A DNA stretch of 15,167 bases. Source: Gemmatimonadota bacterium. Its GTDB lineage: Bacteria; 4572-55; J002. Below the pieces are notes generated by a model. The model was not told where the DNA came from. It was given only the letters and a program-made list of their open reading frames with translations, and did not search any database. Shown here piece after piece: positions 1-15,167 of this stretch. Made by a program: the position numbers and the translations under genes. Position 1 is the first letter of the stretch. Each line of letters begins with the position of its first letter. The stretch covers positions 1 to 15,167 of the forward strand of contig RFFQ01000089.1 in NCBI GenBank assembly GCA_003697105.1, in the 5' to 3' direction.

Positions 1-81
1 GTGCAACGATTCCGCATCCAAAATAACATCGACGACGATGCCTTTGAGAAAATGAACGCCTTTATCAATTTTAAAACATGA
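1..81 (+). CDS. C-terminal 26 codons of an unidentified, probably mobile-element, protein (partial)
   Basis: The frame is open from base 1 and stops at TGA 79-81; its start lies outside the window. The visible residues end in DDDAFEKMNAFINFKT. I do not recognise a family from so short a tail. The same tail occurs inverted at the other window end, and the stop is 18 bases from the repeat boundary, so a transposase C-terminus is the most natural inference. The gene points into the window toward the 3' end of the leftward glutamate dehydrogenase. A host gene inside a longer inverted duplication is the alternative. Confidence 0.45.
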   Translation: MQRFRIQNNIDDDAFEKMNAFINFKT

Positions 82-99
82 GTTTTCCAGAGTTTTCAG
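1..99. repeat. Left copy of 99-base terminal inverted repeat (probable IS end)
   Basis: Bases 1-99 are identical to the reverse complement of 15069-15167, and identity stops sharply at base 100. The repeat holds the 3' end of an open frame (TGA at 79-81) and then 18 bases. Its inner edge reads GAGTTTTCCAGAGTTTTCAG (80-99), in which GAGTTTTC occurs twice 11 bases apart. A protein stop codon lying within 20 bases of the repeat edge is typical of an insertion sequence terminus, but only one end of the element is visible. An exact length of 99 also fits the overlap that a k=99 de Bruijn assembler leaves where a contig stops at a repeat, so the true element probably continues outside the window. 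Confidence 0.8.
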
Positions 100-167
100 C
101 TTTTTTCCAGAGATGGCACTTTGATTATGGATATGAACGGTTTGAAAACGCCGTGGAATGAACTGAT

Positions 168-1454
168 TTATACCCAACCCCGGTCACGGCAGGCTTGTGC
201 CACCCGGCTAATGGAAATGACGTATGCCGCATCCCGCATGTAGAGGTTGCGTTTTTTCGCTAATTCACTCACGGCGAGGAAGGCAGAGGTCATTTTTACA
301 TCCAATTTGCCGAGCACTTCGTCCCGTTCCCAGAAGTAGTTCATGTTCGATTGCACTTGTTCAAAGTAACTACACGTCACACCCCCGGCATTTGCCAGAA
401 AGTCTGGGATCATAAAAATTCCCCGTTCCGCAATGATCGCGTCCGCCTCAGGGGTGGTGGGTCCATTGGCGCCTTCGGCAATCACTTTTACTTGGGGAGA
501 TATTTTATGCACGTTATCGGCGGTGATCTGATTTTCCAGTGCAGAGGGGATCAAAATATCAACCTCTTGTTCGATCCAGGCTTCCCCGTCGAGGACTTCG
601 TACCCCATATCTTGGGCTTTGGCTTTATCGATTCCGCCAAACCGGTCGGTGATGGTCAGTAACTTTTCCAGTTGAATTCCATCTTTACGGCGGAAGGAAT
701 ACGAGCGTTGGTCTTCCTGATCCCAGCAGGAGACACAGATCACTTTACCGCCTAATTGTTCGTAGAGTTGGATGGCAAATTGCGCCACATTGCCGAAGCC
801 TTGAACACTGGCGGTTGTGTCTTCAGGACGGATGCCAAGTTCGCGCAATGCCTCTCGGAGGGTGAAAATCACTCCGAAACCGGTGGCTTCCTTGCGCCCG
901 AGCGAACCCCCCATTCCGACCGGCTTACCGGTGATAAAACCGGGATACTTTGCGCCGTGAATCGCTTCGTATTCGTCCAACATCCAGAGCATATGTTGGG
1001 CGCTGGTCATCACGTCTGGGGCGGGCACATCGGAAAGCGGCCCCACATTTTTCGCAATTTGGCGCACCCAACCGCGACAGAGGAGCTCCTGTTCCCGCAT
1101 ACTCATGTTATGTGGATCGCAAATCACGCCTCCCTTACCGCCGCCCAGAGGAATATCCACTACGGCGCATTTCCAAGTCATCCACATGGAGAGGGCACGC
1201 ACGGTATCAATGGTCTCTTGTGGGTGAAACCGGATACCCCCTTTGCTGGGTCCACGGGCGTCATTATGTTGGCACCGGAACCCCCGAAAAACCTGGGTGG
1301 TGCCATCATCCATCCGTACCGGAATGCTAAAATGATATTCTCTAAGGGGGTACCGCAACAGGGCACGCGTAGCGGCATCCAAGTCCAAAATATCGGCAAC
1401 CTGATCAAACTGCTTCTGTGCCATTTCAAATGGATTAAACGATGAAGTGCTCAT
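168..1454 (-). CDS. Glu/Leu/Phe/Val dehydrogenase family protein (GDH paralog 1)
   Basis: A 428-residue amino-acid dehydrogenase, full length for the family, which catalyses reversible oxidative deamination in the cytoplasm, usually of glutamate to 2-oxoglutarate and ammonia. The N-terminal dimerisation/substrate domain (about 10-180) shows GPSKGGIRFHP (68-78), the catalytic lysine motif LGGGKGG (K107) and the catalytic aspartate in VPAPD (D147). The Rossmann domain starts near 190 (GGSLGRKEATG) and has GFGNVA (219-224). Where relatives read SDS plus a short turn after the second strand, this protein has S242-C-W-D and a longer, charged turn to about 258, so its cofactor or substrate preference may differ. 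The start at 1454 follows a GGCGGTGAG-like ribosome site. The gene is divergent from gdhA, with only limited similarity between the two products. No terminator is visible between its stop and the repeat. Substrate specificity cannot be read from the sequence. Confidence 0.93.
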   Translation of the reverse strand: MSTSSFNPFEMAQKQFDQVADILDLDAATRALLRYPLREYHFSIPVRMDDGTTQVFRGFRCQHNDARGPSKGGIRFHPQETIDTVRALSMWMTWKCAVVDIPLGGGKGGVICDPHNMSMREQELLCRGWVRQIAKNVGPLSDVPAPDVMTSAQHMLWMLDEYEAIHGAKYPGFITGKPVGMGGSLGRKEATGFGVIFTLREALRELGIRPEDTTASVQGFGNVAQFAIQLYEQLGGKVICVSCWDQEDQRSYSFRRKDGIQLEKLLTITDRFGGIDKAKAQDMGYEVLDGEAWIEQEVDILIPSALENQITADNVHKISPQVKVIAEGANGPTTPEADAIIAERGIFMIPDFLANAGGVTCSYFEQVQSNMNYFWERDEVLGKLDVKMTSAFLAVSELAKKRNLYMRDAAYVISISRVAQACRDRGWV

Positions 1455-1579
1455 GGCTCACCGCCTTTCTGCGAAAATGTGAAAAATAGGGTATAGGATA
1501 CTTTATGGTAAAACATAGATAACACGTTATTTTTGATAAAGTTACGTTTTTAGATTCGGTTTCATTTAGCCGATGCTGG

Positions 1580-1608
1580 AATCTACTATAAAGTATCTCG
1601 AAGGTCAA
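1580..1608 (-). promoter_or_regulatory. Possible promoter of GDH paralog 1
   Basis: On the minus strand TTGACC (1603-1608) is followed after 17 bases by TAGATT (1580-1585). The -35 box matches five of six consensus positions and the -10 box four of six. Transcription would start near 1573 and leave a leader of about 120 bases before the 1454 start. The -10 box is weak, so this is tentative. The rest of 1455-1700 is AT-rich and holds only a short inverted repeat (ATAAC-AC-GTTAT near 1520). Confidence 0.35.
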
Positions 1609-1701
1609 GCCTTTTTTGGATAAACAGGTCTAAAAAACGATTAGGTATTGCTACCGTCCCATAATTAAGTGGATAAAAGATTCCGGTTATCGAAATTTTC
1701 A

Positions 1702-1729
1702 TTGACAAACCCTTTTTTTTGCATAATAT
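1702..1729 (+). promoter_or_regulatory. Probable sigma70-type promoter of gdhA
   Basis: TTGACA (1702-1707, perfect -35) is followed after 16 bases by TAATAT (1724-1729). Transcription would begin near 1736 and give a leader of about 85 bases that contains the palindrome at 1741-1772. An alternative is TATATTTG at 1734-1741, which matches the Bacteroidota -7 consensus TAnnTTTG, but I see no correctly spaced TTTG upstream of it. Confidence 0.6.
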
Positions 1730-1740
1730 ACCTTATATTT

Positions 1741-1772
1741 GACAAGCACCTCTCACCGGTGAGAGGCTTGTC
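1741..1772. promoter_or_regulatory. Long palindrome in gdhA leader (operator or attenuator-like hairpin)
   Basis: A perfect 18-base palindrome, CCTCTCACCGGTGAGAGG (1749-1766), is flanked by GACAAG on the left and CTTGTC on the right, offset by a two-base bulge (CA). In total 15 base pairs can form with no unpaired centre. It lies just downstream of the predicted start of transcription and 49 bases before the gdhA start codon. Absence of a loop and dyad symmetry suit a dimeric repressor site. In RNA it could also fold as a stem with a CCGG loop. No T-run follows directly, so it is not a classical terminator. Confidence 0.65.
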
Positions 1773-1782
1773 TGAGGGCTAA

Positions 1783-3183
<1,401 letters not shown>

Positions 3184-3215
3184 GGGTTACCCCCATAATT
3201 GCGGAATCGACCTAT

Positions 3216-3255
3216 AAAAAACAGGCGTATCTCACAGAGATACGCCTGTTTTTTT
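3216..3255. terminator. Strong rho-independent terminator, probably bidirectional
   Basis: The stem ACAGGCGTATCTC (3221-3233) pairs perfectly with GAGATACGCCTGT (3237-3249) around a 3-base loop. It is extended by an A-run on the left (3216-3221) and a T-run on the right (3249-3255). The symmetrical A and T tracts mean it can end gdhA on the plus strand, 33 bases after its stop, and the leftward dprA-region operon on the minus strand, 21 bases after its last gene. Confidence 0.93.
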
Positions 3256-3276
3256 GTTCAAAGCATTTACCTTAGA

Positions 3277-3747
3277 TTATCGATCTACCCACAAGTGACT
3301 TAAATAACCCACAACTGCCGCTGCATAGTAAGGGACGCCAATCTCATGGATGTTTTCCGTGAGTAAAATTGGGACTACCAGTAGGGGTAAGGGGATCAAA
3401 AATGCGGTTGAAAGCCGGTGCGTAAAACCCCGGTGTTTCAACAACGAGATGACCAAAATGCCAACCCCAATCCATGCCGCGATTTCATAATAGTGAAGCA
3501 CAATCAAGGTAATATCCAGTACCAATACGATGCTATAAATCACTTTTTGGGAGGTACTGGTAATATCCACATCAGGAAAGAGCGCCCCTAAATAGCAACA
3601 GATAAAACAAACCGGCAATTGCCACATCTGGTGGAGGATCGAGTTAAGGTCTGTGCCAAACCGGTAGTAATACCACGCCCCGATGGGGATCAACGCCAGC
3701 CCAAACCATAACACGCCTGCCCGAGAATGTGCCTTAAATCCACCCAT
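3277..3747 (-). CDS. YdjM/DUF457-type membrane-bound predicted metal-dependent hydrolase (short form)
   Basis: A 156-residue protein rich in hydrophobic stretches, with about four membrane segments. The hallmarks of the family (inner-membrane predicted hydrolases such as E. coli YdjM) are present in order: an N-terminal histidine in FKAHSRAG (H7), LGALFPDVD with paired aspartates in mid-protein, HRGFTH, and GYLSHLWVD at the C-terminus. The protein stops right after the last motif, whereas YdjM continues for several tens of residues, so this is a short form that keeps all putative metal-ligand motifs. The biochemical function of the family is not established. Its ATG lies 3 bases after the dprA stop with a weak ribosome site, so translation is probably coupled to dprA. 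The bidirectional terminator lies downstream. Confidence 0.72.
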   Translation of the reverse strand: MGGFKAHSRAGVLWFGLALIPIGAWYYYRFGTDLNSILHQMWQLPVCFICCYLGALFPDVDITSTSQKVIYSIVLVLDITLIVLHYYEIAAWIGVGILVISLLKHRGFTHRLSTAFLIPLPLLVVPILLTENIHEIGVPYYAAAVVGYLSHLWVDR

Positions 3748-3750
3748 AGC

Positions 3751-4872
3751 TTATGCCCTAACAAATTGCTTACCGGGCAATGCCTTCACGACCCCTTTAA
3801 GTTCCAGCGCGAGAAGTGTGCCCAACACGTGGTGAGTGGGTTTAGCCACCGTCTTGGCGAGGCGGTCAATATGGAGCGGTGTTTCGGATAATGCTTGATA
3901 AACCTCCAGTTCACTACCGGTTAAAGGGGGAAGATGCTTTTCGGAGGCAGTCGCTGATGGGGGTGATGTGGTGGCAGCGTTGGCGGAAGGCAACAAATAC
4001 GGATTCAAACCTTCCAGAATATCCTGCACTGTTTCCACCAATTTTGCACCATTTTTGATCAAGCGGTTGGAGCCTTGGCTAGTCGCGGAATGGATCGGTC
4101 CTGGCACGGCGAACACATCTTTACCTTGTTCAATCGCGTAATCCGCCGTGATGAGTGCCCCACTTTTGATCCGTGCCTCGGGGACTAAGACTCCCAAACT
4201 CATACCACTGATGATCCGGTTCCGCATGGGGAAATTCATCGCTGTGGGTTGGGTCCCTAGCGGCAATTCTGAAATGAGCGCTCCATTTTCGATGATCCGG
4301 GGCACTAAATCCGCATTATCTGGAGGGTACACCACATCCACCCCACAGCCCAATATCGCTAAAGTACGCCCGCCAGCATTTAGTGCGCTTTCATGGGCGA
4401 CACGGTCAATTCCGCGTGCCATGCCACTGATGATGGTTAGACCGTGTTGAACAAGCTCTGTGGTTAGGTGTTGCGTGACGGTTTTGCCATATACGGATGC
4501 CGCGCGAGGTCCTACAACTCCTATAGCGACCTCGTCTTCCGCTGTTAATGTGCCTCGGACGAATAGGAGCGCCGGGGGATCGTAAATTTTGTGAAGAGGT
4601 TTGGGGTAAGTGTCACAGCGATAGGTGATTAGCTGGATATCCTGCGCTGCCATCTGTTCAATTTGCCGCTTCACGGAATCGGGGTTGTGTTTGGCGATAA
4701 TCGCCTGAGCGGTTTTACGATCCATGCGGGGCAGGCGGCTGATCTGTTCGAGCGATGCCTCCAACACGGCTTGTGGCGACCCGAACGCCTCCACCAACTG
4801 GCGGAGCCGGACGGACCCCACTCCGTTGATCGAACGCAACATAAGCCATGCCTGTAATTCCGTGGATGTCAT
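3751..4872 (-). CDS. dprA: DNA-processing protein DprA (Smf)
   Basis: A 373-residue protein of normal DprA length. DprA binds incoming single-stranded DNA during natural transformation, protects it and loads RecA. The N-terminal 60 residues form a helix-hairpin-helix/SAM-like region (GVGSVRLRQL; LPRMDRKTAQAII). The central Rossmann-like domain shows VVGPRAASVYG (119-129), SGMARGIDRVAH (149-160), ILGCGVDVVYP (173-183), FPMRNRIISG (214-223) and SGALITADYAIEQGKDVFAVPG (first residue S237). A proline-rich linker (about 292-318) leads to a C-terminal winged helix (about 318-373). The start ATG overlaps the obgE stop as ATGA (4 bases), which indicates translational coupling. Its presence suggests the organism can, or once could, take up DNA, but no other competence gene is in the window. 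Confidence 0.96.
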   Translation of the reverse strand: MTSTELQAWLMLRSINGVGSVRLRQLVEAFGSPQAVLEASLEQISRLPRMDRKTAQAIIAKHNPDSVKRQIEQMAAQDIQLITYRCDTYPKPLHKIYDPPALLFVRGTLTAEDEVAIGVVGPRAASVYGKTVTQHLTTELVQHGLTIISGMARGIDRVAHESALNAGGRTLAILGCGVDVVYPPDNADLVPRIIENGALISELPLGTQPTAMNFPMRNRIISGMSLGVLVPEARIKSGALITADYAIEQGKDVFAVPGPIHSATSQGSNRLIKNGAKLVETVQDILEGLNPYLLPSANAATTSPPSATASEKHLPPLTGSELEVYQALSETPLHIDRLAKTVAKPTHHVLGTLLALELKGVVKALPGKQFVRA

Positions 4873-5861
4873 GCGGTTTCGCTCGCTGGGGGGATGGAAT
4901 TTAACTGCCGGATTATTTCGTACAGCATCGGTTTTGTTCCGTGACCGGTCACGGCGGAGATCGGAAAGACTGGCAGGTTTCCGAAATCCGGCGGAGCATA
5001 ATCTGCCGGTAAAATATCCATTTTATTGAGGGCGATGAGTGCCGGACGTGCTAATAATTCTGGGCGATATTCTCGTAATTCTGTTTGCAGAATATTAAAA
5101 TCGGCTTGAGGGTCTTCGGTACTGCCGTCAATCACGTAAATCAGGAGTTTGGTACGCTCAATGTGGCGTAAAAAATCCAGACCTAGACCCTTGCCTTCAT
5201 GTGCGCCTTCGATCAGTCCGGGAATATCTGCCATGACAAAGCTTTGTACCCCATCTAGGGTGACATACCCCAAGTTGGGCACGAGGGTCGTGAACGGGTA
5301 CGCTGCCACTTTGGGGCGGGCAGAAGAGAGGCGCGATAGCAACGTGGATTTTCCGGCATTAGGATGCCCCACTAACCCTACATCGGCAATGGTTTTTAGC
5401 TCCAAGATGATGTCCAGTTCTTCACCGGGTTTGCCGGGTGTTGCTTTGCGCGGTACTCGATTATTGGCGGTTGCAAATCGGGCATTGCCAAGCCCACCCT
5501 TCCCACCTTTGGCAATTACACAGCGGGCATCCGGTGTTGTTAAATCGGCTAAAATTTCATGGGTTTCCGCGTGGCGTACCACGGTGCCTTGAGGCACCCA
5601 GATGATCGTATCTTCACCGGCTTTGCCAAATTTATCACTGCCTTGACCGTGTTGGCCTCGTTTTGCCTCGTAACGGCGGCGATAGCGATGATCGCGGAGA
5701 GTGTTCATGTTGGGGTCCACGGCCACGATGATGTCACCGCCTTTCCCGCCGTCACCGCCATTGGGACCGCCGTGGGGCACATGTGCCTCCCGCCGGAACG
5801 AAATACACCCGTTGCCCCCGTCACCCGCTTTAATATGTAAGGTTGCAATATCAACAAACAT
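4869..5861 (-). CDS. obgE: GTPase Obg (CgtA)
   Basis: A 330-residue GTPase associated with the large ribosomal subunit, acting in 50S assembly and stress control. The glycine-rich Obg fold is at 1-158 (KAGDGGNG, PNGGDGGKGGD, KGGKGGLGNARF). The G domain follows with G1 GHPNAGKS (165-172), G2 threonines in YPFTT (188-192), G3 DIPG (212-215), G4 NKMD (279-282) and G5 SAVTG (302-306). The frame stays open 13 codons upstream to 5900, but I chose 5861 because Obg proteins begin MFVD or similar and GGGAG lies 8 bases before this ATG. No C-terminal extension domain is present, as in many Gram-negative Obg proteins. The stop overlaps dprA. An 88-base gap separates it from the SUMF1-fold gene upstream on the same strand, with no clear promoter in it. 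Confidence 0.96.
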   Translation of the reverse strand: MFVDIATLHIKAGDGGNGCISFRREAHVPHGGPNGGDGGKGGDIIVAVDPNMNTLRDHRYRRRYEAKRGQHGQGSDKFGKAGEDTIIWVPQGTVVRHAETHEILADLTTPDARCVIAKGGKGGLGNARFATANNRVPRKATPGKPGEELDIILELKTIADVGLVGHPNAGKSTLLSRLSSARPKVAAYPFTTLVPNLGYVTLDGVQSFVMADIPGLIEGAHEGKGLGLDFLRHIERTKLLIYVIDGSTEDPQADFNILQTELREYRPELLARPALIALNKMDILPADYAPPDFGNLPVFPISAVTGHGTKPMLYEIIRQLNSIPPASETA

Positions 5862-5949
5862 TTGTAAATCTCCCAACAATCCGCGAATGATGGGAATCAT
5901 CCCCGAATAACCACAACATACCGGACAACCCCATGTGGGCTAGCTGGAG

Positions 5950-6801
5950 CTACCGAACAACCCGGAAGCCAAAATTGGCATATTTTAGATTCGCATTGAG
6001 CCCGTACCGGTAGGCGGTTCGTACCCACCGCACATTATTATCATACGCGCCACCGCGCAGAATATGGACATTGGCATTTTTCCCGGCAGCTACCGGATTT
6101 TTCACCGGCGCATTATCCGCCCGCGTACGGAATGCATGAACATCCCACGAGTCCAGACACCACTCCCACACATTGCCGCTCATATCATACAAGCCAAGAG
6201 CGTTGGGCTTTTTTTGCCCGACCGGGTGGGTTTTCCCGTCACTGTTTTTATCAAACCAAGCGTATTGATCCAGTTGGAGGGAATCCGATGTGCCCGCCCA
6301 CTGTTGGCGCTTGCCACCGCTCCGTGCCGCATATTCCCACTGGGCTTCGGTTGGAAGTTGGTAGCCGTAAAACCGGCAAAATTCGTAGGCGCCGTACCAC
6401 GTGACCATCACGACTGGATACTGTTCATAACCCGGCTGAGGAATCCAGCCGTCTTCAGTTTTCCGCAGACCCCATTCGTGCGGCTCCACTAATTTTTGTC
6501 CCGAATATTTGCTATCCTTAACAGAATCCGAACCGTATTCATTCAAAAATGCGGCATACTGGTGATTAGTGATTTCGTACGCGCTGATCTCAAATCGATC
6601 CAGCTCAACTTCGTGTACCGGTTTTTCCCAAAACAGTCCACCGCCCCGGATATCGCCCATCTGGAATGATCCGGCAGGTACTGGGACAAATTGAATCCCT
6701 GTGCGGGAATCCAGAATAGGGGTGGGGGGAGATTGTGCGAAAAGTGTCGTTGTCCCACCAGCCAACCACAGTATGATGAATATCCACTTGTGTTGTATCA
6801 T
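5950..6801 (-). CDS. Secreted SUMF1/FGE-fold protein lacking the FGE catalytic cysteines
   Basis: A 283-residue precursor. Residues 1-23 form a signal peptide (MIQHKWIFIILWLAGG, probable cleavage near LFA-QS), so it acts in the periplasm or outside the cell. The remainder is a formylglycine-generating-enzyme-sulfatase (SUMF1) fold: GIQFVPVPAGSFQMGD (35-50), FEISAYEITNHQYAAFLN (70-87), VVMVTWYGAYEFCRF (130-144), LPTEAQWEYAAR (149-160), GLYDMSGNVWEWC (203-215), ILRGGAYDNN (247-256) and NFGFRVVR at the end. Genuine FGE enzymes carry two cysteines in the segment after RGG; here it reads AYDNNVRWVRTAYRYG, with none. Sulfatase activation is therefore unlikely, and a ligand-binding or structural role is more plausible. 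The frame is open to 6900, but 6801 gives the signal peptide directly; GGAG lies about 13 bases upstream, a long spacing. It is co-directional with obgE. Confidence 0.85.
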   Translation of the reverse strand: MIQHKWIFIILWLAGGTTTLFAQSPPTPILDSRTGIQFVPVPAGSFQMGDIRGGGLFWEKPVHEVELDRFEISAYEITNHQYAAFLNEYGSDSVKDSKYSGQKLVEPHEWGLRKTEDGWIPQPGYEQYPVVMVTWYGAYEFCRFYGYQLPTEAQWEYAARSGGKRQQWAGTSDSLQLDQYAWFDKNSDGKTHPVGQKKPNALGLYDMSGNVWEWCLDSWDVHAFRTRADNAPVKNPVAAGKNANVHILRGGAYDNNVRWVRTAYRYGLNANLKYANFGFRVVR

Positions 6802-6972
6802 ATATCTGTGTGATTCTCCAAAAATTAAGGCAATTAATTGATTGCAGAATGTACCAAAAAATATGGATTCCCGCAAGCGTGAAATTCGGACACTTTCCAT
6901 CCGTTAAGGTTGGGTAACCCGGTTTTGTGGATGATCGACCCGAAGGGTTTGGCAAATCCTTAGGGTTTTAAA

Positions 6973-7003
6973 TCGACAAACTAAGCTCAGATTTGCTTAT
7001 AAT
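6973..7003 (+). promoter_or_regulatory. Possible distal promoter of the 7361 gene
   Basis: A perfect TATAAT (6998-7003) is preceded by TCGACA (6973-6978, five of six -35 matches) at a long 19-base spacing. A TG dinucleotide lies at 6994-6995, one base off the extended -10 position. A transcript starting near 7010 would carry a leader of about 350 bases before the metallopeptidase-barrel gene. Confidence 0.4.
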
Positions 7004-7199
7004 ACCTTGTAACCACATTGCGCATGTCAGGTATCAATAACGGGTAAAACGGAAGTTCATTTTTTAGCTTTAAGCCCGTTAACGTTTATAACTAGCTGGT
7101 AGATAATAACTTAATTTTCTATCTGTTCCTTATGGGATGTAAGGTACGTTCTTTCGGGCGTATCGGGTAGCACGTGGTCTAAGGTTATGCGGCGGTTTT

Positions 7200-7224
7200 C
7201 AAAGCGGCTTGACGCCTTGCTTTG
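7200..7224. repeat. Inverted repeat centred on a -35 box
   Basis: CAAAGCGGC (7200-7208) pairs with GCC plus GCTTTG (7214-7216, 7219-7224) around TTGAC, with a two-base bulge. Nine base pairs are possible. The predicted -35 element TTGACG (7209-7214) occupies the loop and inner edge, so a dimeric regulator bound here would block the promoter. It may also be a chance structure. Confidence 0.4.
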
Positions 7225-7237
7225 GGGGCTGTAGATT
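7209..7237 (+). promoter_or_regulatory. Probable proximal promoter of the 7361 gene
   Basis: TTGACG (7209-7214, five of six) is followed after the optimal 17 bases by TAGATT (7232-7237, four of six; the same -10 sequence as in the candidate promoter for GDH paralog 1). TAGATTTA also matches seven of eight positions of the Bacteroidota -7 consensus TAnnTTTG. The start would lie near 7244, giving a leader of about 117 bases. Confidence 0.45.
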
Positions 7238-7360
7238 TACCTCTTTCATTTTAGGGAAGGTTTTTTTATTTTATGTGCCCGCTGAATTTTGGATTTGATG
7301 AAACTGCCGGATTTTGTCATTACCGGATGGTAACATGTCATTGTAAACGAAGAGATAGTC

Positions 7361-10183
7361 ATGGTTAGATATCGATGGGTGTTTTGCTGGATGTTCATCT
7401 TAGGGTGGGGGTGGGGGCAACATGACCTCACCCATGCCCAATATTTTGGTAAAAATAAAATTCAGTACACCCAGTTTGACTGGAAGGTCATGGAAACCCC
7501 CCATTTTGATATTTTTTACTACGAAACCGAAAGTGAATTGGCAGAAATGGCGGCGGCAATTGCCGAATCTGCCAACAAAAAGCTCTCCGCCATATTCCGC
7601 CACCATTTAACCCGCCGTATTCCGCTTATTATTTACAGTACGCACAACGATTTTCAACAGACCAATACCTCGCCCTATTTCATACCGGAAAGTACCGGTG
7701 GTTTTACGGAATTTGCCAAAGGGCGAGTGGTTTTGCCTTATAACGGTTCCTATTTTGATCTGAAGCACGTCCTGACCCACGAGTTGGTGCATGTCTATCA
7801 ACTGAATATTTTACATGATCTGCAAAAAACGCACCCGCGCCTCAAAATGACCTACCCGCCATTGTGGTTTATTGAAGGGATGGCGGAAGTCTTTAGTGAG
7901 GATTGGGATACGGAAGCGGATATGATCTTGCGCGATTTGGTACTCTCCCAAAATCTACTTCCCATCCCGGAAATCTGGCGTATCAGCGGTTCTTATCTGA
8001 TGTACAAGCAAGGGCAATCCATCTTGACATATATCGCGCAACACTATGGGGAAGATAAAATTGTGCAGATGTTACGGGATTGGTGGAAAGTGAAGGATTT
8101 TGAGGAGGCGGTGCCATTGGCGCTGGGTATCTCCTTGGTGGAACTCAGCCGCCAATGGATGTATGCCCTTCAGAAGACGTATTATCCGGTGCTGGAGAGC
8201 CGAGATACCCCTGACCAAACCTATACGCGCCTCGCGTTTGAAGGTTTTTTGAATTACCGCCCGGCAGTGGTGCCGGATACCACGCAACTTCGCTTCTGTT
8301 TTGGTTCCAATCGAGATGGTTTCCCCGGAATTTATTATTTGGAAGGCAGTGAACCGTTGAGCAAACCCAAACGGCTTATCAAAAGTGGGCAGTCTGCCCG
8401 GTTTGAATCGCTTCATTTGCAACGGAGTTCCATTGATGTTAATGCTGCCGAACAACTGGTTTTTGTTAGCAAAAGTGGGGAACGAGATGCGCTCTATATC
8501 TATGATATTCCAAATCGGGAAATACGGTGGCGAGCGGAATTTGATAGCCTAATTGCCCTCTCTTCGCCGGCGTGGTCGCCGGATGCGTCCCGTATTGTGT
8601 TTAGTGCTCTGAACAATGGGGGCATGTCGGATTTATATATGGTAACGGTATCCGACCAACACCTGACGCAATTGACCCATGATGTGTATCATGACCGGCA
8701 TCCCCGGTGGAGTCCCGATGGGCGGTGGATTGCGTTCAGTTCCGACCGTAATCCGTGGGGCGATCAAGGGGCATATAATATCTACCGGTATGATGTGGAA
8801 CAGGGGGATATTCAACCGCTCACTGCCGGAAACCACATTGATAATTACCCAGATTGGCATCCAAATGGGGATTATTTGGTTTATAATTCGGATCGAGATG
8901 GTATATTTGACCTCTATTTAGTGGATTTAGCCGGAAATACGATACCGGTTACCCGCACAACGACCGGCTTTTCCGATCCGCGCTGGACGGCTGATGGGCG
9001 CTCGTTGGTTGCCTCGGCGCTGGTCAATCACCGTCCGGCATTGTTTTGGATTGAAACCCCCGATTCCTTGTTTCAGCAACTCGGTTTCCGCCGGGACATC
9101 GGGGATACCATGACGGTAACTATGCCGGATTCTTACGCCGTCTGGCAGCCGCAACGAACACAGGGGGAGTATGTCGAACGAGATTATAAACCCCGTTTTA
9201 CGATGGATATTTCGAGTTCTACCATTGCTTTTGATTCCGATTTGCGCTTCGGCGGTGGCTCGGTGCTGGTATTTACCGATATGCTGGGGAATCATCAGTT
9301 AGGTCTGGTGTTAAGCAACAATTCGGGTGAGATGGGTACCTTTTTCAAAAATTTTGATGCGTGGGTTGGATATACCAACCTGGCCAACCGGATGAATTAC
9401 ACCATCGGGGGATTTCATTTTTACGATGAGTACCAAGAACCGCGAAATTTTGAAGACGTCGGCAGTTACGCCGAACGTCAATATGGCGGTATGGTTGCCC
9501 TCACATACCCCTTTTCCCCGTTCCGGCGGGCGAGTTTGACGACCCTTCTGCGCCGGACAGAGCAGGATTATTACATCATTAACGATCATAAAAACGCTTT
9601 TTTAACATCGCTTTTTTTGAATTATACGAAAGATACGTCATTGATGTTTTACGGCACGGCTGGACCGGTTGATGGCTCGCGTTACAGCTTCTCTGTCGGG
9701 CACACCATCGATTTTGATGATGTCCAATTGGGATACACCACATTTGTCGCAGATGCCCGGCGATATTTTCGATTGGGTACTCGAAGTTGTTTTGCCACCC
9801 GAACCTTAGGGTTGTTCAGCACCGGTGATAACCCCGAATATTACCGCATTGGCGGTTCATGGACATTGCGTGGCTATGATTGGCGTTCGTTAGAAGGAAC
9901 AAAAATTATATTGCTCAATAATGAAGTCCGGTTTCCGGTACTGAACCGCCTGCTACTCGGATTCCCAATGGGTACGCTAGAATTGCCCGGCACAGAAGGC
10001 GCTATTTTTTTTGATATGGCGTATCTCGGTGAAGAAAAATTCCAAGCGCCCCTAGGTAGTTTCGGCTTGAGTTTTCGCTTGAATTTAGGTATAGTACTAC
10101 GTTTAGATGTTGCCAAAAAGACGGATTTCGACCGAATTTCGCGCGAAACCGTAACCCAGTTCTTTTTTGGTTATGATTACTAA
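7361..10183 (+). CDS. Secreted metallopeptidase-like / TolB-like propeller / Omp85-like barrel protein
   Basis: A 940-residue envelope protein. Residues 1-27 form a signal peptide (probable cleavage at THA-QYF). Residues about 35-275 resemble the gluzincin peptidase MA group: HELVH (H140, E141, H144) and then WFIEGMAEVF with E172 as likely third zinc ligand, 28 residues on. Residues about 290-600 contain PD40/TolB-like propeller blades: SPAWSPDASRIVFSA (402-416), HPRWSPDGRWIAFSSDR (447-463), YPDWHPNGDYLVYNSDRDG (496-514) and DPRWTADGRSLV (539-550). Residues about 610-940 are a beta-barrel of bacterial surface antigen (Omp85) type with the signature GGSWTLRGY (831-839) and an aromatic C-terminal end (FFFGYDY). 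No POTRA repeats are obvious; propeller and peptidase take their place. A role in outer-membrane protein processing or export is inferred. The ribosome site at the 7361 ATG is weak. recJ follows on the same strand 87 bases later. Confidence 0.85.
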   Translation: MVRYRWVFCWMFILGWGWGQHDLTHAQYFGKNKIQYTQFDWKVMETPHFDIFYYETESELAEMAAAIAESANKKLSAIFRHHLTRRIPLIIYSTHNDFQQTNTSPYFIPESTGGFTEFAKGRVVLPYNGSYFDLKHVLTHELVHVYQLNILHDLQKTHPRLKMTYPPLWFIEGMAEVFSEDWDTEADMILRDLVLSQNLLPIPEIWRISGSYLMYKQGQSILTYIAQHYGEDKIVQMLRDWWKVKDFEEAVPLALGISLVELSRQWMYALQKTYYPVLESRDTPDQTYTRLAFEGFLNYRPAVVPDTTQLRFCFGSNRDGFPGIYYLEGSEPLSKPKRLIKSGQSARFESLHLQRSSIDVNAAEQLVFVSKSGERDALYIYDIPNREIRWRAEFDSLIALSSPAWSPDASRIVFSALNNGGMSDLYMVTVSDQHLTQLTHDVYHDRHPRWSPDGRWIAFSSDRNPWGDQGAYNIYRYDVEQGDIQPLTAGNHIDNYPDWHPNGDYLVYNSDRDGIFDLYLVDLAGNTIPVTRTTTGFSDPRWTADGRSLVASALVNHRPALFWIETPDSLFQQLGFRRDIGDTMTVTMPDSYAVWQPQRTQGEYVERDYKPRFTMDISSSTIAFDSDLRFGGGSVLVFTDMLGNHQLGLVLSNNSGEMGTFFKNFDAWVGYTNLANRMNYTIGGFHFYDEYQEPRNFEDVGSYAERQYGGMVALTYPFSPFRRASLTTLLRRTEQDYYIINDHKNAFLTSLFLNYTKDTSLMFYGTAGPVDGSRYSFSVGHTIDFDDVQLGYTTFVADARRYFRLGTRSCFATRTLGLFSTGDNPEYYRIGGSWTLRGYDWRSLEGTKIILLNNEVRFPVLNRLLLGFPMGTLELPGTEGAIFFDMAYLGEEKFQAPLGSFGLSFRLNLGIVLRLDVAKKTDFDRISRETVTQFFFGYDY

Positions 10184-10270
10184 GGGTGGAGGTGTCAGGA
10201 TTGGGGAGCATCTGTGTTCTTCAGCCCTAACCCCTTTTCCTTTACACTTAACCTTGGAGAACACTTCAGA

Positions 10271-11956
10271 ATGGAGACTGTACAATGGTATCTTAAAGAG
10301 ATCGACCCAGACCGGATTCCGCAATTAATCACCGGTGAGATTCCACCGGTCGTCGCACATTTGCTCGCCGGACGGGGAATTACGACGATTGAAGAAGCAC
10401 AGCGATTCCTGAATCCGTCCCTTTCGGATTTGCATAGCCCCTATTTTTTGCTCGATTTAGACCGGACGGCAAAGCGTATTCAGCAATACCAAGATTCCGG
10501 GCAGACGGTACTCGTCTATGGGCATGATGATGTGGATGGGATCACCAGTACGCTGGTTATTGTCGAGACCTTGCGTTTGTTGGGGATTCCGGCAAAAACG
10601 TTTATCCCAAACCGGATGTCTGATGATTATAAACTAAGTACGGAGGTTTATGAGCAGTGTCGGAATGAAAATATCCCGTTGGTCATTGCCATTGATAATG
10701 GTATTACCAGTGTGGATGAAGTCGCGTATGGCAACCAAATCGGGGTAGAGACGATCATCATTGATCATCATATTTGCCCGAATCCATTACCGCCGGCATT
10801 TGCAATAGTGAACCCGCTTCGACCCGGCTGCCCTTACCCGTTTAAAAAATTGGCGGCCGTGGGTTTGGCGTATAAACTGGCACAGGTACTCTTAAAAGCA
10901 CCGCCATACCAGCAGGCGCTGGAAACCCTGCTCGAGCTGGTGGTATTGGGGACGGTTTCGGATAAAGTACCTTTACTCGATGAGAATCGGTTGTTCACCT
11001 ATTTTGGGTTGCAAAAATTAGCGCAAACACAACGCCCAGGATTGAAGTATCTGGTCGAACAGTTTCACATCCGTCCAGAAGACACTTCAATTGAAAAAGT
11101 GGCATCCCGCATCATTCCGTTATTGACCTCCGGGCGTACCGGAGACGGTCAGCATCATGGATACCAACTGTTGGTAGAAACGGATGAGATTGAAATCCGT
11201 AAATTGTATGCCCTATTGAGCCAGATTTCGCACCAATGGCGGGAGGAATCCTCCCAAGCAACCCTATCGGCGGTAAAACGGGTTGAACAATTAGATTTGC
11301 TGGATGAAAAGATCATCATTGTCGTCGACCGGAATTTGCCGATCTCCTATTTGGGCAAATGCGCCGCCAAACTTAAAGCTCGTTTTGATCGTCCGGCAAT
11401 TGTGATGAGCTACAAACGGGATCACGCCGTGGGAGAAGCCCGTTCGATTGAGGGTTTTGATCTGGTAGCGGCATTCCGCCACTGCGAAGATTTGCTGATC
11501 CAGTACGGTGGGCACAAACCGGCGGCAGGCTTCTCGATTCCGTTTGAAAATATTTCTGCGTTTCAGGAACGGATGTTTGAATACGCCGATCAGATGCTGG
11601 ATTGGGAAGAGTTGCAACCCGTCATTGAAGTGGATGCCGAACTCCCCGTGGATGACATTACACCCGATCTTATTCGATGGATTGCTCGATTTGAACCCTT
11701 GGGTTCCGGGAACCCGGTACCAGTCTTTTACGCCGAAAATGTGCCGTACGACCCGGTTTCTCTGCCGGGCTATGCCGGTCGAAGCGGAACCGTGCTTATG
11801 CGAGCGTCCGGGTCGATTTTCGAGCAATTGCTCCAGCTACCTGCTGGTGGGAAAATCGATCTGGTGTTTACCCTAGACTTAGAATCGCCAGATTCTCCGA
11901 CCATCGAGGTGAAAGATTTTACGGAAGCCGGTGCGGATCGAGAAACATTGGTGTGA
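10271..11956 (+). CDS. recJ: Single-stranded-DNA-specific exonuclease RecJ
   Basis: A 561-residue protein, close to E. coli RecJ (577). RecJ degrades single-stranded DNA 5' to 3' in RecF-pathway recombination and mismatch or base-excision repair. The DHH domain shows motif I GHDDVDGITST (84-94), motif II AIDNGIT (D142), motif III DHH (165-167) with NPLRPGCPYPFKKLAAVGLAYKLA starting at 181, and motif IV LGTVSDKVPLL (D231). The DHHA1 domain shows GEARSIEGFDLVAAF (388-402) and GGHKPAAGF (413-421). The C-terminal OB-type domain starts near 450 (RFEPLGSGNPVPVF, 473-486). Motif I has histidine (H85) where bacterial RecJ normally has the first Asp of DxDxDG, and motif II has N for C. The frame opens 19 codons earlier (10214), but 10271 has GGAGA 10 bases upstream and begins at the usual point of the fold. 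Probably co-transcribed with the 7361 gene; convergent with the flippase gene with 23 bases between and no visible terminator. Confidence 0.95.
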   Translation: METVQWYLKEIDPDRIPQLITGEIPPVVAHLLAGRGITTIEEAQRFLNPSLSDLHSPYFLLDLDRTAKRIQQYQDSGQTVLVYGHDDVDGITSTLVIVETLRLLGIPAKTFIPNRMSDDYKLSTEVYEQCRNENIPLVIAIDNGITSVDEVAYGNQIGVETIIIDHHICPNPLPPAFAIVNPLRPGCPYPFKKLAAVGLAYKLAQVLLKAPPYQQALETLLELVVLGTVSDKVPLLDENRLFTYFGLQKLAQTQRPGLKYLVEQFHIRPEDTSIEKVASRIIPLLTSGRTGDGQHHGYQLLVETDEIEIRKLYALLSQISHQWREESSQATLSAVKRVEQLDLLDEKIIIVVDRNLPISYLGKCAAKLKARFDRPAIVMSYKRDHAVGEARSIEGFDLVAAFRHCEDLLIQYGGHKPAAGFSIPFENISAFQERMFEYADQMLDWEELQPVIEVDAELPVDDITPDLIRWIARFEPLGSGNPVPVFYAENVPYDPVSLPGYAGRSGTVLMRASGSIFEQLLQLPAGGKIDLVFTLDLESPDSPTIEVKDFTEAGADRETLV

Positions 11957-11979
11957 CTGTCCGGGAGCCATTCTGGAAC

Positions 11980-13425
11980 TCATGAGGGTTTGTCTTGACT
12001 CGTGCTCAACCGAAAGAGGAATGATCTGAGTCCCCACAATCCCGCAAAAATCAATAAGGTGACGGTACCACATCCGGCTAAATGCCATAGGGTGGACTCA
12101 ATATAACGTCCGGCGGCATATCCCCCCAACATGGCGATCCCGCTGATTCCGCCGATCTCCAACAGGGATTTAAAGGGCAATACCTGCCAAAACGAGACCT
12201 TTAGGGCCTTGCATACCCAGATCAAATAGACCAGCACTTGTAAATAGGTGGAAATCACCACCGCCCAAGCGGGTCCAGTACTGCCCCAATGTTGCACCAG
12301 CCATAATCCTAGCAGGAAATTGAGGATTAGATCGCCCAGCGAGGCGTAAAAAATCGGTTTGGTATGTCCGGCGGCGAGTAAAATAGAAGAGACAAATAGC
12401 GCTCGCAAGGGAATCAGTAACAGAAAGATACGGAAATAGTGGGCACTCTCGCGGTAGCTTTCAGAGAAGAGGAGCACCATCACGTCTTCCGCACAGACCA
12501 GAAACACGGCAAATACCGCAAAGAGAATCAGAGCAAGTTTGCGGATGCCATTATGCCAGATGTGCCGTACTGTCGCGGAATCCCCTCTCCCCAGTAATTG
12601 ACTAAACTCTGGGATCACCACCGCCGCCACCGAGGAGACCAAAATACCGATAAACGGAATCTCAAAGCTGCCGTTACTGTAAATGGCAAATTCCGTGGCA
12701 CTGAAGAAGGCGGCAACTAGCAGGGCATTGGTGTTGTGGGCGAGAATCCCAACCATTTCGGTTAGTGCTACCGGCACGGCATAACGCAGTTGGCGGGTGA
12801 GAAGGGCAATATTGATCCCCAGATGAGGTTTACCCAGCACCCGCAGGGTTTGGCTGAGGAAGAGCACCAACTTAAAACTGACAGCCACACCAAGCCCAAC
12901 CAATGCCCAATACACCGATTGCGTTTGGGAGACCAGCACCCACAGGAGCAGGAGGGCAAGACTACTACTGATAAGGGATACCCCTAGGATTAGTTTTTGC
13001 CGGTTGAGGCTGATAAACAGGGGTTCGGCGAAGGAAACCAGCACTCCACTGAAGACATACAGCGCAAACACCCGGAGCAACGGGATCACCTCGGGACGGT
13101 GGACGCCCCGCCCGAACGGCTCACTGCCCCAAAAGAAGATCAACGCGCCTAAGAGTGCCAGCACGCCTAAACATTCGAGGGTTTGCCAAATAAAACGGAG
13201 TTGAGCGTCACCTTCCAACCGGACATAAAAAAAGAGAATACTTGCCGGAATGCCAATGGTGAGAAACGGAAATGCGGTACGGTAAATCAGCAAGACATAC
13301 TGAAAATTACCGTAATCGGCTTTATCCAATAGGCGGCTTAGCAGGACTGCCACCAAAAGCAAACTTAGGCGGTTGATCGCACGGGCACTACCCAATATGC
13401 CGATGCGGCGGGTTAGGGTACTCAT
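11980..13425 (-). CDS. Wzx-like polysaccharide/lipid-linked oligosaccharide flippase (MOP superfamily)
   Basis: A 481-residue integral inner-membrane protein with roughly 12-14 hydrophobic segments across its whole length. The N-terminus (LGSARAINRLSLLLVAVLLSRLLDKADYGNFQYV, first L at 11) is the typical opening of the polysaccharide biosynthesis/Wzx family of the MATE-like MOP superfamily. The middle segment ALTEMVGILAHNTNALLVAAFFSATEFAIYSNGSFEIPFIG (first A at about 220) corresponds to the repeat opening of the second half. Such proteins flip undecaprenyl-linked oligosaccharides or other lipid-linked sugars to the periplasmic face. The substrate cannot be named, because no glycosyltransferase or polymerase gene is adjacent. 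Its start overlaps the upstream phosphatase stop by 4 bases (ATGA), so the two are translationally coupled. The C-terminus is short and polar (RLSTSQDKPS). Confidence 0.87.
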   Translation of the reverse strand: MSTLTRRIGILGSARAINRLSLLLVAVLLSRLLDKADYGNFQYVLLIYRTAFPFLTIGIPASILFFYVRLEGDAQLRFIWQTLECLGVLALLGALIFFWGSEPFGRGVHRPEVIPLLRVFALYVFSGVLVSFAEPLFISLNRQKLILGVSLISSSLALLLLWVLVSQTQSVYWALVGLGVAVSFKLVLFLSQTLRVLGKPHLGINIALLTRQLRYAVPVALTEMVGILAHNTNALLVAAFFSATEFAIYSNGSFEIPFIGILVSSVAAVVIPEFSQLLGRGDSATVRHIWHNGIRKLALILFAVFAVFLVCAEDVMVLLFSESYRESAHYFRIFLLLIPLRALFVSSILLAAGHTKPIFYASLGDLILNFLLGLWLVQHWGSTGPAWAVVISTYLQVLVYLIWVCKALKVSFWQVLPFKSLLEIGGISGIAMLGGYAAGRYIESTLWHLAGCGTVTLLIFAGLWGLRSFLFRLSTSQDKPS

Positions 13426-14195
13426 TCCACGTGTTGGATGCAGTCAAGCATTTGCTGGTGTAGTTGGGGGTTGGCGGCGACGATGTTTCCGGTGTGCAGA
13501 AAATGTGGGCTGCCGCTCATCTCGGTAACGATGCCGCCAGCTTCTTTGACAATTAGCGTCCCCGCGGCAATGTCCCACGGATAGAGGTTAAATTCCCAAA
13601 ACCCATCCAGACGCCCACATGCTACATGTACCAGATCGAGTGCGGCGGAGCCTGCCCGGCGCATATCCGAACAAATGTTAAACAATGCCCGGAACACTTT
13701 TAGATAGTGATCAAAAATTTGAGGTTTCCGGAAGGGAAACCCCGTCGCAATCAACGACATCTGTCGCTCCGCGGTCTGGGTCACCTGAATTGGTTTCCCA
13801 TTGAGGAATGCCCCCTTCCCTTTTTCCGCCGTAAATAGCTCATCTCGGACCGGATCATACACCACACCTAAAATTAACTCCTGTTCATACTGTAACGCAA
13901 TGGAGACACAATACATTTGATAACCATGAATGTAATTTGTGGTACCATCCAGCGGATCGATAATCCAGCAGTAAGGTGAATCGGTGGTGCTTTGCTCAGA
14001 TTCTTCTGCGAGTACACCAAACGTGGGAAATCGATCCGCCAACAGACTCAATATGGCTTTTTCTGCGGCGATATCGATTTCGGTGACAAAATCCCGCGCT
14101 TGTTTGTGAATGATTTCCGTGTACTGGAGCTTTTCACGTTGCGTTTGCAACACTGCCCCGCCCGCTTTTGCGGCATTGATTGCGGCTTCTAACAT
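13422..14195 (-). CDS. Inositol monophosphatase family protein (SuhB-like)
   Basis: A 257-residue Mg-dependent phosphatase of the IMPase/FBPase/CysQ superfamily, usual length. Motifs in order: DFVTEIDIAAE (35-45), FGVLAEES (59-66, metal ligand E64), WIIDPLDGTTNYIHG (77-91, ligands D80 and D83), GAFLNGKPI (128-136) and YPWDIAAGTLIVKEAGG (205-221, ligand D208). All catalytic residues are intact. The substrate within the family (inositol phosphate, sugar phosphate, or a role like SuhB in rRNA antitermination) cannot be decided. The ATG at 14195 follows AGGGAG at close spacing. Its stop overlaps the flippase start, and a 49-base AT-rich gap separates it from btpA upstream. The context with a flippase fits, but does not prove, a role in making an inositol- or sugar-containing envelope component. 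Confidence 0.93.
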   Translation of the reverse strand: MLEAAINAAKAGGAVLQTQREKLQYTEIIHKQARDFVTEIDIAAEKAILSLLADRFPTFGVLAEESEQSTTDSPYCWIIDPLDGTTNYIHGYQMYCVSIALQYEQELILGVVYDPVRDELFTAEKGKGAFLNGKPIQVTQTAERQMSLIATGFPFRKPQIFDHYLKVFRALFNICSDMRRAGSAALDLVHVACGRLDGFWEFNLYPWDIAAGTLIVKEAGGIVTEMSGSPHFLHTGNIVAANPQLHQQMLDCIQHVE

Positions 14196-14244
14196 TGTCT
14201 CCCTCTTTAAATTAGTTGTTTTTTATCAATAAGTTACAGTAATA

Positions 14245-15051
14245 TTAATTTTTCACCGCTTGCTTAAGCTGTCGCACACGTGTTTGATCCACCGGGTTTA
14301 AGGTTATTCCATCAATTTTCAAGGCAGTCCCGACAATCGCCCCGTCCGCGATGGCGAACGTATCTCGTGCGGTGTTGGGGTTGACGCCGCTACCCACCAG
14401 CACCGGCGCCTGAGGCAGAACCGATTTAATGTCTTGGACGTGGTCCAGATTCGTTGATTGACCGGTTCCACTGCCCGTAATGATCAACGCATCCGCCATT
14501 CCTCGCAGAAATGTATCTTTTGCGATAGTAACCAAATCCATGGATCCGATTGGGAAGGCGTGTTTGACCATCACATCCGCCAAGATTGCCACGTTGTTGG
14601 CATCAAGTTGGTTACGGTAGCGCAATGTTTGGTGTGCCTTTCCTTGTAGTATTCCTTGATCGGCGACCATTGCCCCCGTATGGACATTTACGCGGATGAA
14701 TTGGCTGTGGGTCATGGCGGCGATTGCCAGAGCCGCTTGAGCATCGTTCCGCAGGACATTGATCCCAATCGGGATGGTTTCCACAATTGCTTTTACCGCC
14801 AACGTGACGCGGGTCATGGCGGCGATGGTGTGGGGTTCGACCTGTGCCGGGTAAAACGGGTAATCGCCGTAATTTTCAATGATGATTCCATCGATACCTC
14901 CGTTTTTCAAGGCTTCGGTATCACGGAGAGCATGATCGATCACGGTTGTCATCGAACCACGATAATTCGGGCTACCGGGTAAGGGATGGAGGTGAATCAC
15001 CCCGATTAGGGGTTTATGGTTTGGAAAAAGTTCGGTAAATCGGGTACTCAT
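14245..15051 (-). CDS. btpA: BtpA/SgcQ family TIM-barrel protein
   Basis: A 268-residue protein of usual BtpA length, predicted to fold as an alpha/beta TIM barrel. Signatures: LIGVIHLHPLPGSP (15-28), IIIENYGDYPF (56-66), GINVLRND (96-103), FIRVNVHTGAMVADQG (118-133), ILADVMVKHAFP (156-167), ALIITGSGTG (188-197), VLVGSGVN (217-224) and ADGAIVGTALK (235-245). Cyanobacterial BtpA is required to stabilise photosystem I; in non-phototrophs the family (including SgcQ) has no settled function, and nothing here suggests phototrophy. I chose the ATG at 15051 because AAGGAG lies 7 bases upstream and the family begins there. The frame is open to 15090, where an in-frame ATG inside the terminal repeat overlaps the upstream stop codon and would add 13 residues. 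First gene of a likely three-gene operon with the IMPase and flippase. Confidence 0.92.
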   Translation of the reverse strand: MSTRFTELFPNHKPLIGVIHLHPLPGSPNYRGSMTTVIDHALRDTEALKNGGIDGIIIENYGDYPFYPAQVEPHTIAAMTRVTLAVKAIVETIPIGINVLRNDAQAALAIAAMTHSQFIRVNVHTGAMVADQGILQGKAHQTLRYRNQLDANNVAILADVMVKHAFPIGSMDLVTIAKDTFLRGMADALIITGSGTGQSTNLDHVQDIKSVLPQAPVLVGSGVNPNTARDTFAIADGAIVGTALKIDGITLNPVDQTRVRQLKQAVKN

Positions 15052-15068
15052 TATGTTCTCCTTATTAA

Positions 15069-15167
15069 CTGAAAACTCTGGAAAACTCATGTTTTAAAAT
15101 TGATAAAGGCGTTCATTTTCTCAAAGGCATCGTCGTCGATGTTATTTTGGATGCGGAATCGTTGCAC
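15069..15167. repeat. Right copy of 99-base terminal inverted repeat (probable IS end)
   Basis: Exact reverse complement of bases 1-99. Its inner edge is CTGAAAACTCTGGAAAACTC (15069-15088). Only 17 bases separate it from the btpA start codon, and these hold the ribosome binding site. Both copies are oriented with the encoded protein reading into the window. Confidence 0.8.
15087..15167 (-). CDS. C-terminal 26 codons of the repeat-encoded protein, right copy (partial)
   Basis: Identical to the left-end fragment, read on the minus strand toward btpA. Its TGA (15087-15089) overlaps an ATG (15088-15090) in frame with btpA. The start lies beyond the window. If it is a transposase, its transcript would run directly into btpA, whose start codon is 35 bases after this stop. 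The family is not recognised. Confidence 0.45.
   Translation of the reverse strand: MQRFRIQNNIDDDAFEKMNAFINFKT

Follow-up and report, generated by a model that had tools for sequence, protein, structure and literature searches.

We analyzed a 15,167-nt stretch of DNA (the window) from a Gemmatimonadota bacterium (GTDB lineage Bacteria; 4572-55; J002), which comprises positions 1 to 15,167 of the forward strand of contig RFFQ01000089.1 in assembly GCA_003697105.1. An intact open reading frame of 940 codons with an ATG start occupies exactly positions 7361 to 10183 of the plus strand. We found that it encodes a secreted protein with three domains in one chain: a zinc peptidase (residues ~41 to 287), a TolB-like propeller (residues ~298 to 566), and an Omp85 barrel (residues ~605 to 940). 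The full-length AlphaFold2 model, built from a 78-sequence alignment, has a mean pLDDT of 86.6 and a pTM of 0.87. Among the folded domains, mean pairwise identity is highest in the peptidase (52%), followed by the barrel (46%) and the propeller (38%).

An earlier note, made from the sequence alone, had read this locus as a metallopeptidase, a propeller, and an Omp85-like barrel in one 940-residue secreted chain. The open reading frame, the hidden Markov model (HMM) matches, and the structural model all agree with that description. The HELVH motif and downstream glutamate that the note had pointed out lie at residues 140 to 144 and 172 and are invariant in 78/78 orthologues, and the model places them in the helices expected of a gluzincin. 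The note had counted at least four PD40 blades; the model matches six-bladed propellers and so exceeds that number. A barrel with an RGY signature had been placed at residues 610 to 940, and the model gives 16 strands from about residue 605 to residue 940, with the signature in the loop that joins strands 11 and 12. Judged from the fold and the helix positions, neither outcome that the note had named as refuting its reading came up.

Residues 1 to 26 (positions 7361 to 7438, plus strand) read by eye as a Sec-type signal peptide without a lipobox, and residues 3 to 18 form a helix in the model. Directly after it comes the conserved N-terminal peptide QYFGKNKIQY (residues 27 to 36; 7439 to 7468, plus strand), in which Q27, F29, G30, N32, K33, and Y36 are each conserved in 96 to 99% of the 78 orthologues. 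This post-signal stretch (QYFGxNKVQY) is among the most conserved in the family yet is mostly disordered in the model, where residues 17 to 32 have pLDDT values below 50; it may be a partner-binding site. At its C-terminal end the protein reads FFFGYDY, which by eye resembles the last strand of an outer-membrane barrel.

Elsewhere in the window, adjacent divergent genes at 168 to 1454 (minus strand) and 1822 to 3183 (plus strand) resemble glutamate dehydrogenase paralogues. A gene at 5950 to 6900 (minus strand), divergent from and upstream of the gene studied here, encodes a secreted protein resembling formylglycine-generating-enzyme/SUMF1 domains. Both assignments were made from sequence only.

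Peptidase and propeller domains

The peptidase domain (7481 to 8221, plus strand) is of the gluzincin type. It matches Pfam Peptidase_MA_2 (PF13485) with 35.9 bits when the whole protein is searched and 39.8 bits when the domain is searched alone, above the cut-off of 32.4 bits. The same model matches 76 of the 77 family members at E ≤ 0.01. Modeled alone, the domain has a pLDDT of 83.0. The closest solved folds to this model are the M30 peptidase lugdulysin (Z score, 16.7 over 231 residues) and the M9 collagenases (Z scores, about 14 to 16; 16.3 for the Grimontia collagenase), with M1 aminopeptidases scoring just below them.

The zinc motif HELVH (H140, E141, and H144; 7778 to 7792, plus strand) lies on one model helix (residues 131 to 157), and the predicted third zinc ligand, E172 (7874 to 7876, plus strand), lies on the next (residues 168 to 179). 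In a profile search, HELVH and the WFxEGxAE segment, which contains E172, aligned with ColG, the latter with the collagenase motif WxxEGxAE. The segment around Y215 (8003 to 8005, plus strand), the predicted catalytic tyrosine, aligned with the Vibrio harveyi collagenase VhaC, such that Y215 corresponds to Tyr549, the residue replaced in the mutant structure 9l5o. Both matches are weak (E values of 0.04 to 0.5) and serve for residue correspondence only. Activity of the Grimontia collagenase requires Tyr564 (PMC9304777), which, judging from motif spacing, would be the position equivalent to Y215.

We found that H140, E141, H144, E172, and Y215 are identical in 78/78 aligned orthologues and that HExxH, E172, and Y215 are also kept in 19/19 proteins of a second, more divergent set, paralogues among them. 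About 3% of shuffled 940-residue proteins contain an HExxH motif by chance, but the invariance of the site in all 78 orthologues rejects a chance occurrence here. Membership in the M9 collagenases was also rejected (PF01752, 16.1 bits against a cut-off of 26). These residues suggest that the peptidase is enzymatically active.

The propeller (8252 to 9058, plus strand) matched Pfam PD40 (E = 1.3e-22), DPPIV_N, and the NCBIfam TolB propeller model TIGR02800 (E = 4.5e-35), and in a search of PDB sequences residues 399 to 550 matched TolB. Residues 307 to 570 aligned with Escherichia coli TolB (1crz) in VIA-align with a Z score of 27.4 and an rmsd of 2.4 over 244 residues. The protein is not a true TolB; its TIGR02800 score of 121.4 bits falls far below the equivalog cut-off of 343.15 bits. 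The six-bladed propeller is common to both proteins, but here it sits in one chain with a peptidase before it and a barrel after it.

Omp85 barrel

The barrel (9173 to 10180, plus strand) has 16 strands in the model and is of the BamA/TamA type. In VIA-align, residues 614 to 940 aligned with Deinococcus radiodurans BamA (8xnb) with a Z score of 25.6 and an rmsd of 3.3 over 307 residues, and Z scores against solved BamA barrels were about 23 to 26. By sequence, the window protein matched the NCBIfam model Omp85_fam weakly and below threshold (residues 789 to 936, E = 0.0065), and a Pfam search with the window barrel alone gave no match, PF01103 (Omp85) included. In contrast, 46 of 60 relatives matched PF01103 at E ≤ 0.001. 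Because the relatives match Omp85 and the model has 16 strands, we retained the assignment despite the subthreshold score of the single sequence.

In Omp85 proteins, a lid-lock is formed by a motif at the tip of loop L6, (V/I)RG(Y/F), and a strand-13 motif, (F/G)xDxG, the first residue of which is Phe in BamA/TamA insertases and Gly in FhaC translocases (PMC4490367). The L6 motif here is LRGY (residues 836 to 839; 9866 to 9877, plus strand), which has Leu in place of the first Val or Ile; R837 is invariant in 78/78 orthologues, and G838 is present in 70/78. The strand-13 motif is FFDMA (residues 883 to 887; 10007 to 10021, plus strand), within model strand 871 to 888. Position 883 is Phe in 75/78 orthologues and position 887 is Gly in 75/78 but Ala in the window protein, while D885, like its lock partner R837, is identical in all 78. 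Since position 883 is Phe rather than the Gly of FhaC and the R837/D885 pair is invariant, the barrel is assigned to the BamA/TamA insertase type. The protein shares with BamA the 16-stranded barrel, the L6 lid, and, but for Ala at position 887, the strand-13 FxDxG lock; it differs from BamA in having no POTRA domains.

The earlier note had read the layout as one with a protease and propeller in place of POTRA domains, and a Pfam search of the whole window protein at E ≤ 10 gave no POTRA match. The layout is not wholly undescribed: propeller-Omp85 proteins without POTRA domains were presented by Heinz and Lithgow in 2014 as the WD40-Omp85 subfamily, reminiscent of a BamA-BamB fusion (PMC4104836). 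That paper treats subfamilies without POTRA domains as accepted Omp85 members, so the absence of POTRA does not exclude membership. Like the window protein, the WD40-Omp85 proteins have a TolB-like propeller N-terminal to the barrel; the text of that paper mentions neither a peptidase N-terminal to the propeller nor a conserved BamB-like gene alongside. Our literature search for a peptidase/propeller/Omp85 protein, mostly outside subscription journals, returned the WD40-Omp85 paper and work on PlpD alone, and it found functional work on no non-POTRA Omp85 subfamily other than the patatin type. What appears to be new here is the intact protease site and the conserved partner gene, of which that search found no description; the subfamily itself is known.

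A similarly named group must be kept apart from these proteins. PF00149 comprises calcineurin-like metallophosphoesterases rather than proteases. A "metalloprotease" Omp85 subfamily has been defined by PF00149 (PMC4104836, section 10), and the name is repeated elsewhere (PMC11116518). This "Metallo" subfamily is probably misnamed, and it is not the peptidase-bearing family described here.

Relatives, gene neighborhood, and other Omp85 proteins of the genome

A divergent paralogue (38% identity) lies on another contig of the same genome. A scan of genome contigs with the single protein found nothing; a seven-member group alignment served as the query for a scan of GTDB genomes. At least 594 stretches matched the pattern, and at least 525 loci were confirmed as relatives. 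The best 80 of these, named as in their records, come from Zixibacteria, KSB1, Calditrichota, Ignavibacteria/Bacteroidota, Kryptonia, Neomarinimicrobiota, Latescibacterota, Eisenbacteria, and Gemmatimonadota. In a spread sample of 290 genomes, 77 had a match at E ≤ 1e-100. The phylum of the window is represented by two genomes in the set, both with two copies. The family is thus large and spread over many lineages. The tree splits into a main clade, which includes the window protein, and a second clade of paralogues (support, 0.93). Because many genomes have one copy from each clade, the duplication looks old.

We found the same gene for a BamB-like PQQ-propeller protein immediately downstream on the same strand in 59 of the 75 relatives with room for it, with a truncated copy in 3 more. 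In 28 pairs the two genes overlap by an identical 13 nt. All three downstream products tested scored over the cut-off for PF13360 (named BamB; a PQQ_2 propeller). A Cys is invariant in the 15 products aligned, and 45 of 59 have a lipobox-like motif. The best NCBIfam model was BamB (TIGR03300; E values of 9.6e-29 and 2e-46), but with 100 and 158 bits against a cut-off of 285 these products are not assigned as true BamB. The lipoprotein would be a physical partner of the barrel protein, as its gene linkage suggests.

In 22 of 50 relatives, the gene after the BamB-like one encodes a PEGA-type protein (for example, L092:7641-8438), and one of the two products tested matched PF08308; it is possible that the PEGA protein is a third member of the system. 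In the neighborhoods of the relatives the conserved neighbors are the PQQ propeller and the PEGA protein, with no obvious substrate gene conserved beside them. At eight loci of the second paralogue group, we found no conserved neighbor.

The window departs from the common arrangement. Where most relatives have the BamB-like partner, a RecJ exonuclease gene (TIGR00644 over its cut-off) lies 30 nt downstream at 10214 to 11956 on the plus strand. The BamB-like gene is absent from this position, and a strong homologue (C14; E = 2.5e-87) is encoded at an unlinked site in the same genome.

Elsewhere in the genome, the gene for a separate BamA with five POTRA domains adjoins skp/lpx-type genes, and there are two genes for three-POTRA proteins. 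Because this BamA is present, the window protein adds to BamA, and its replacement of BamA was rejected. A patatin-POTRA-Omp85 protein of the PlpD type (C136; L154:5173-7587, minus strand) is encoded as well, which gives the genome two kinds of enzyme-Omp85 fusion. A third propeller-Omp85 protein (C185; P0002; L155:4111-6948, plus strand) keeps the layout, but its N-terminal domain has no HExxH motif; from its sequence it is possibly a dead-peptidase member.

A proposed role in outer-membrane assembly or quality control

Because the peptidase and propeller lie N-terminal to an even-stranded barrel, both are expected to be periplasmic. We propose, as the most likely reading and with a probability of roughly 40%, that a BamA-type barrel here carries a BepA-like protease that serves outer-membrane assembly or quality control. 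According to this model, a zinc peptidase and a TolB-like propeller would replace the POTRA domains, and the single chain would work like BepA docked on BamA. The propeller and the BamB-like lipoprotein would bind envelope clients near the barrel, either unfolded barrel proteins or outer-membrane lipoproteins, and the peptidase would remove clients that are stalled or misassembled, or trim them. Both the class of client and the quality-control role are inferred.

Several findings support this model. The gluzincin catalytic residues are invariant, and the peptidase, the most conserved of the folded domains, resembles known peptidases in its modeled fold. The barrel belongs to the insertase type, and most relatives have a BamB-like gene downstream. 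We also count the five-POTRA BamA in its favor, since a general insertase is already present. BepA itself is a precedent, being a zinc peptidase that acts on the barrel client LptD at BAM (PMC8423444). The likeness to BepA, an M48 periplasmic zinc protease at the assembly site, extends to the proposed function only: BepA is a separate protein, whereas the window peptidase shares a chain with the barrel and has M30 and M9 enzymes as its nearest solved folds. Other findings weigh against the BepA-like model. The BamB-like gene is unlinked in this genome, and the products tested from relatives score below the BamB equivalog cut-off. Position 887 of FxDxG is Ala in the window protein. The third propeller-Omp85 protein, without HExxH, implies that some members of the wider class act without proteolysis. 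Finally, PlpD demonstrates that an enzyme-Omp85 fusion need not join in protein assembly (PMC11116518).

The last point leads to the first alternative, that a closed barrel without an insertase role is an outer-membrane anchor that holds a periplasmic protease by the inner leaflet, where it would trim lipoproteins, peptidoglycan-linked proteins, or signaling proteins. In PlpD (type Vd), the best studied of the enzyme-Omp85 fusions, an enzyme likewise precedes an Omp85 barrel; that enzyme is periplasmic, and no insertion or export by the protein is known (PMC11116518). That this genome encodes both a patatin-Omp85 protein and BamA also counts in favor of this alternative. The PlpD enzyme is a phospholipase, and PlpD keeps its POTRA domain and has no propeller, unlike the window protein. 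The full conservation of the insertase/translocase lid-lock residues and the linkage to a gene for a BamB-like lipoprotein argue for an assembly role, and we consider simple anchoring somewhat unlikely.

The earlier note had suggested that cleavage could accompany insertion or export of a substrate; in this reading, the attached peptidase would cut specific substrates as the barrel inserts or exports them. The fusion of three modules in a single chain is consistent with such coupling, and protein export by FhaC-type Omp85 proteins is documented (PMC4490367). The strand-13 motif here has the BamA/TamA form, FxDxG, and not the GxDxG of FhaC, and the neighborhoods hold no obvious conserved substrate gene; we regard processing during translocation as improbable. 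We judge it still less probable that the N-terminal domains reach the surface by way of the barrel and break down external protein for nutrition, like a cell-bound collagenase. The nearest solved folds, M30 lugdulysin and the M9 collagenases, are secreted enzymes, but the match is generic to gluzincins, with M1 aminopeptidases scoring close by. In the Omp85 proteins studied, POTRA domains face the periplasm, as does the enzyme domain of PlpD, and the strict conservation over many lineages would be unlike a variable nutritional enzyme. That the zinc fold and propeller form a catalytically silent binding platform, as the propeller-barrel protein without HExxH might suggest, is very hard to reconcile with predicted catalytic residues that are invariant in both the 78 orthologues and the 19 divergent proteins.

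If the BepA-like model is extended to the whole family, many lineages within the wider FCB group may have a second widespread outer-membrane assembly and proofreading machine beside BAM. Its parts would be a BamA-type barrel fused to a zinc protease and a TolB-like propeller, a BamB-like lipoprotein dedicated to it, and in some cases a PEGA-domain protein, and it would decide between insertion and degradation of clients. We offer this extension as speculative and rather doubtful. One of the non-POTRA subfamilies, WD40-Omp85, is probably not simply the BamA-BamB fusion suggested in 2014 but a barrel that bears a protease, apparently active, and in many cases has a BamB-like gene of its own adjoining. 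The catalytic residues and the gene pair are direct experimental handles, and the coupling of barrel assembly to proteolysis can be tested where both share one chain.
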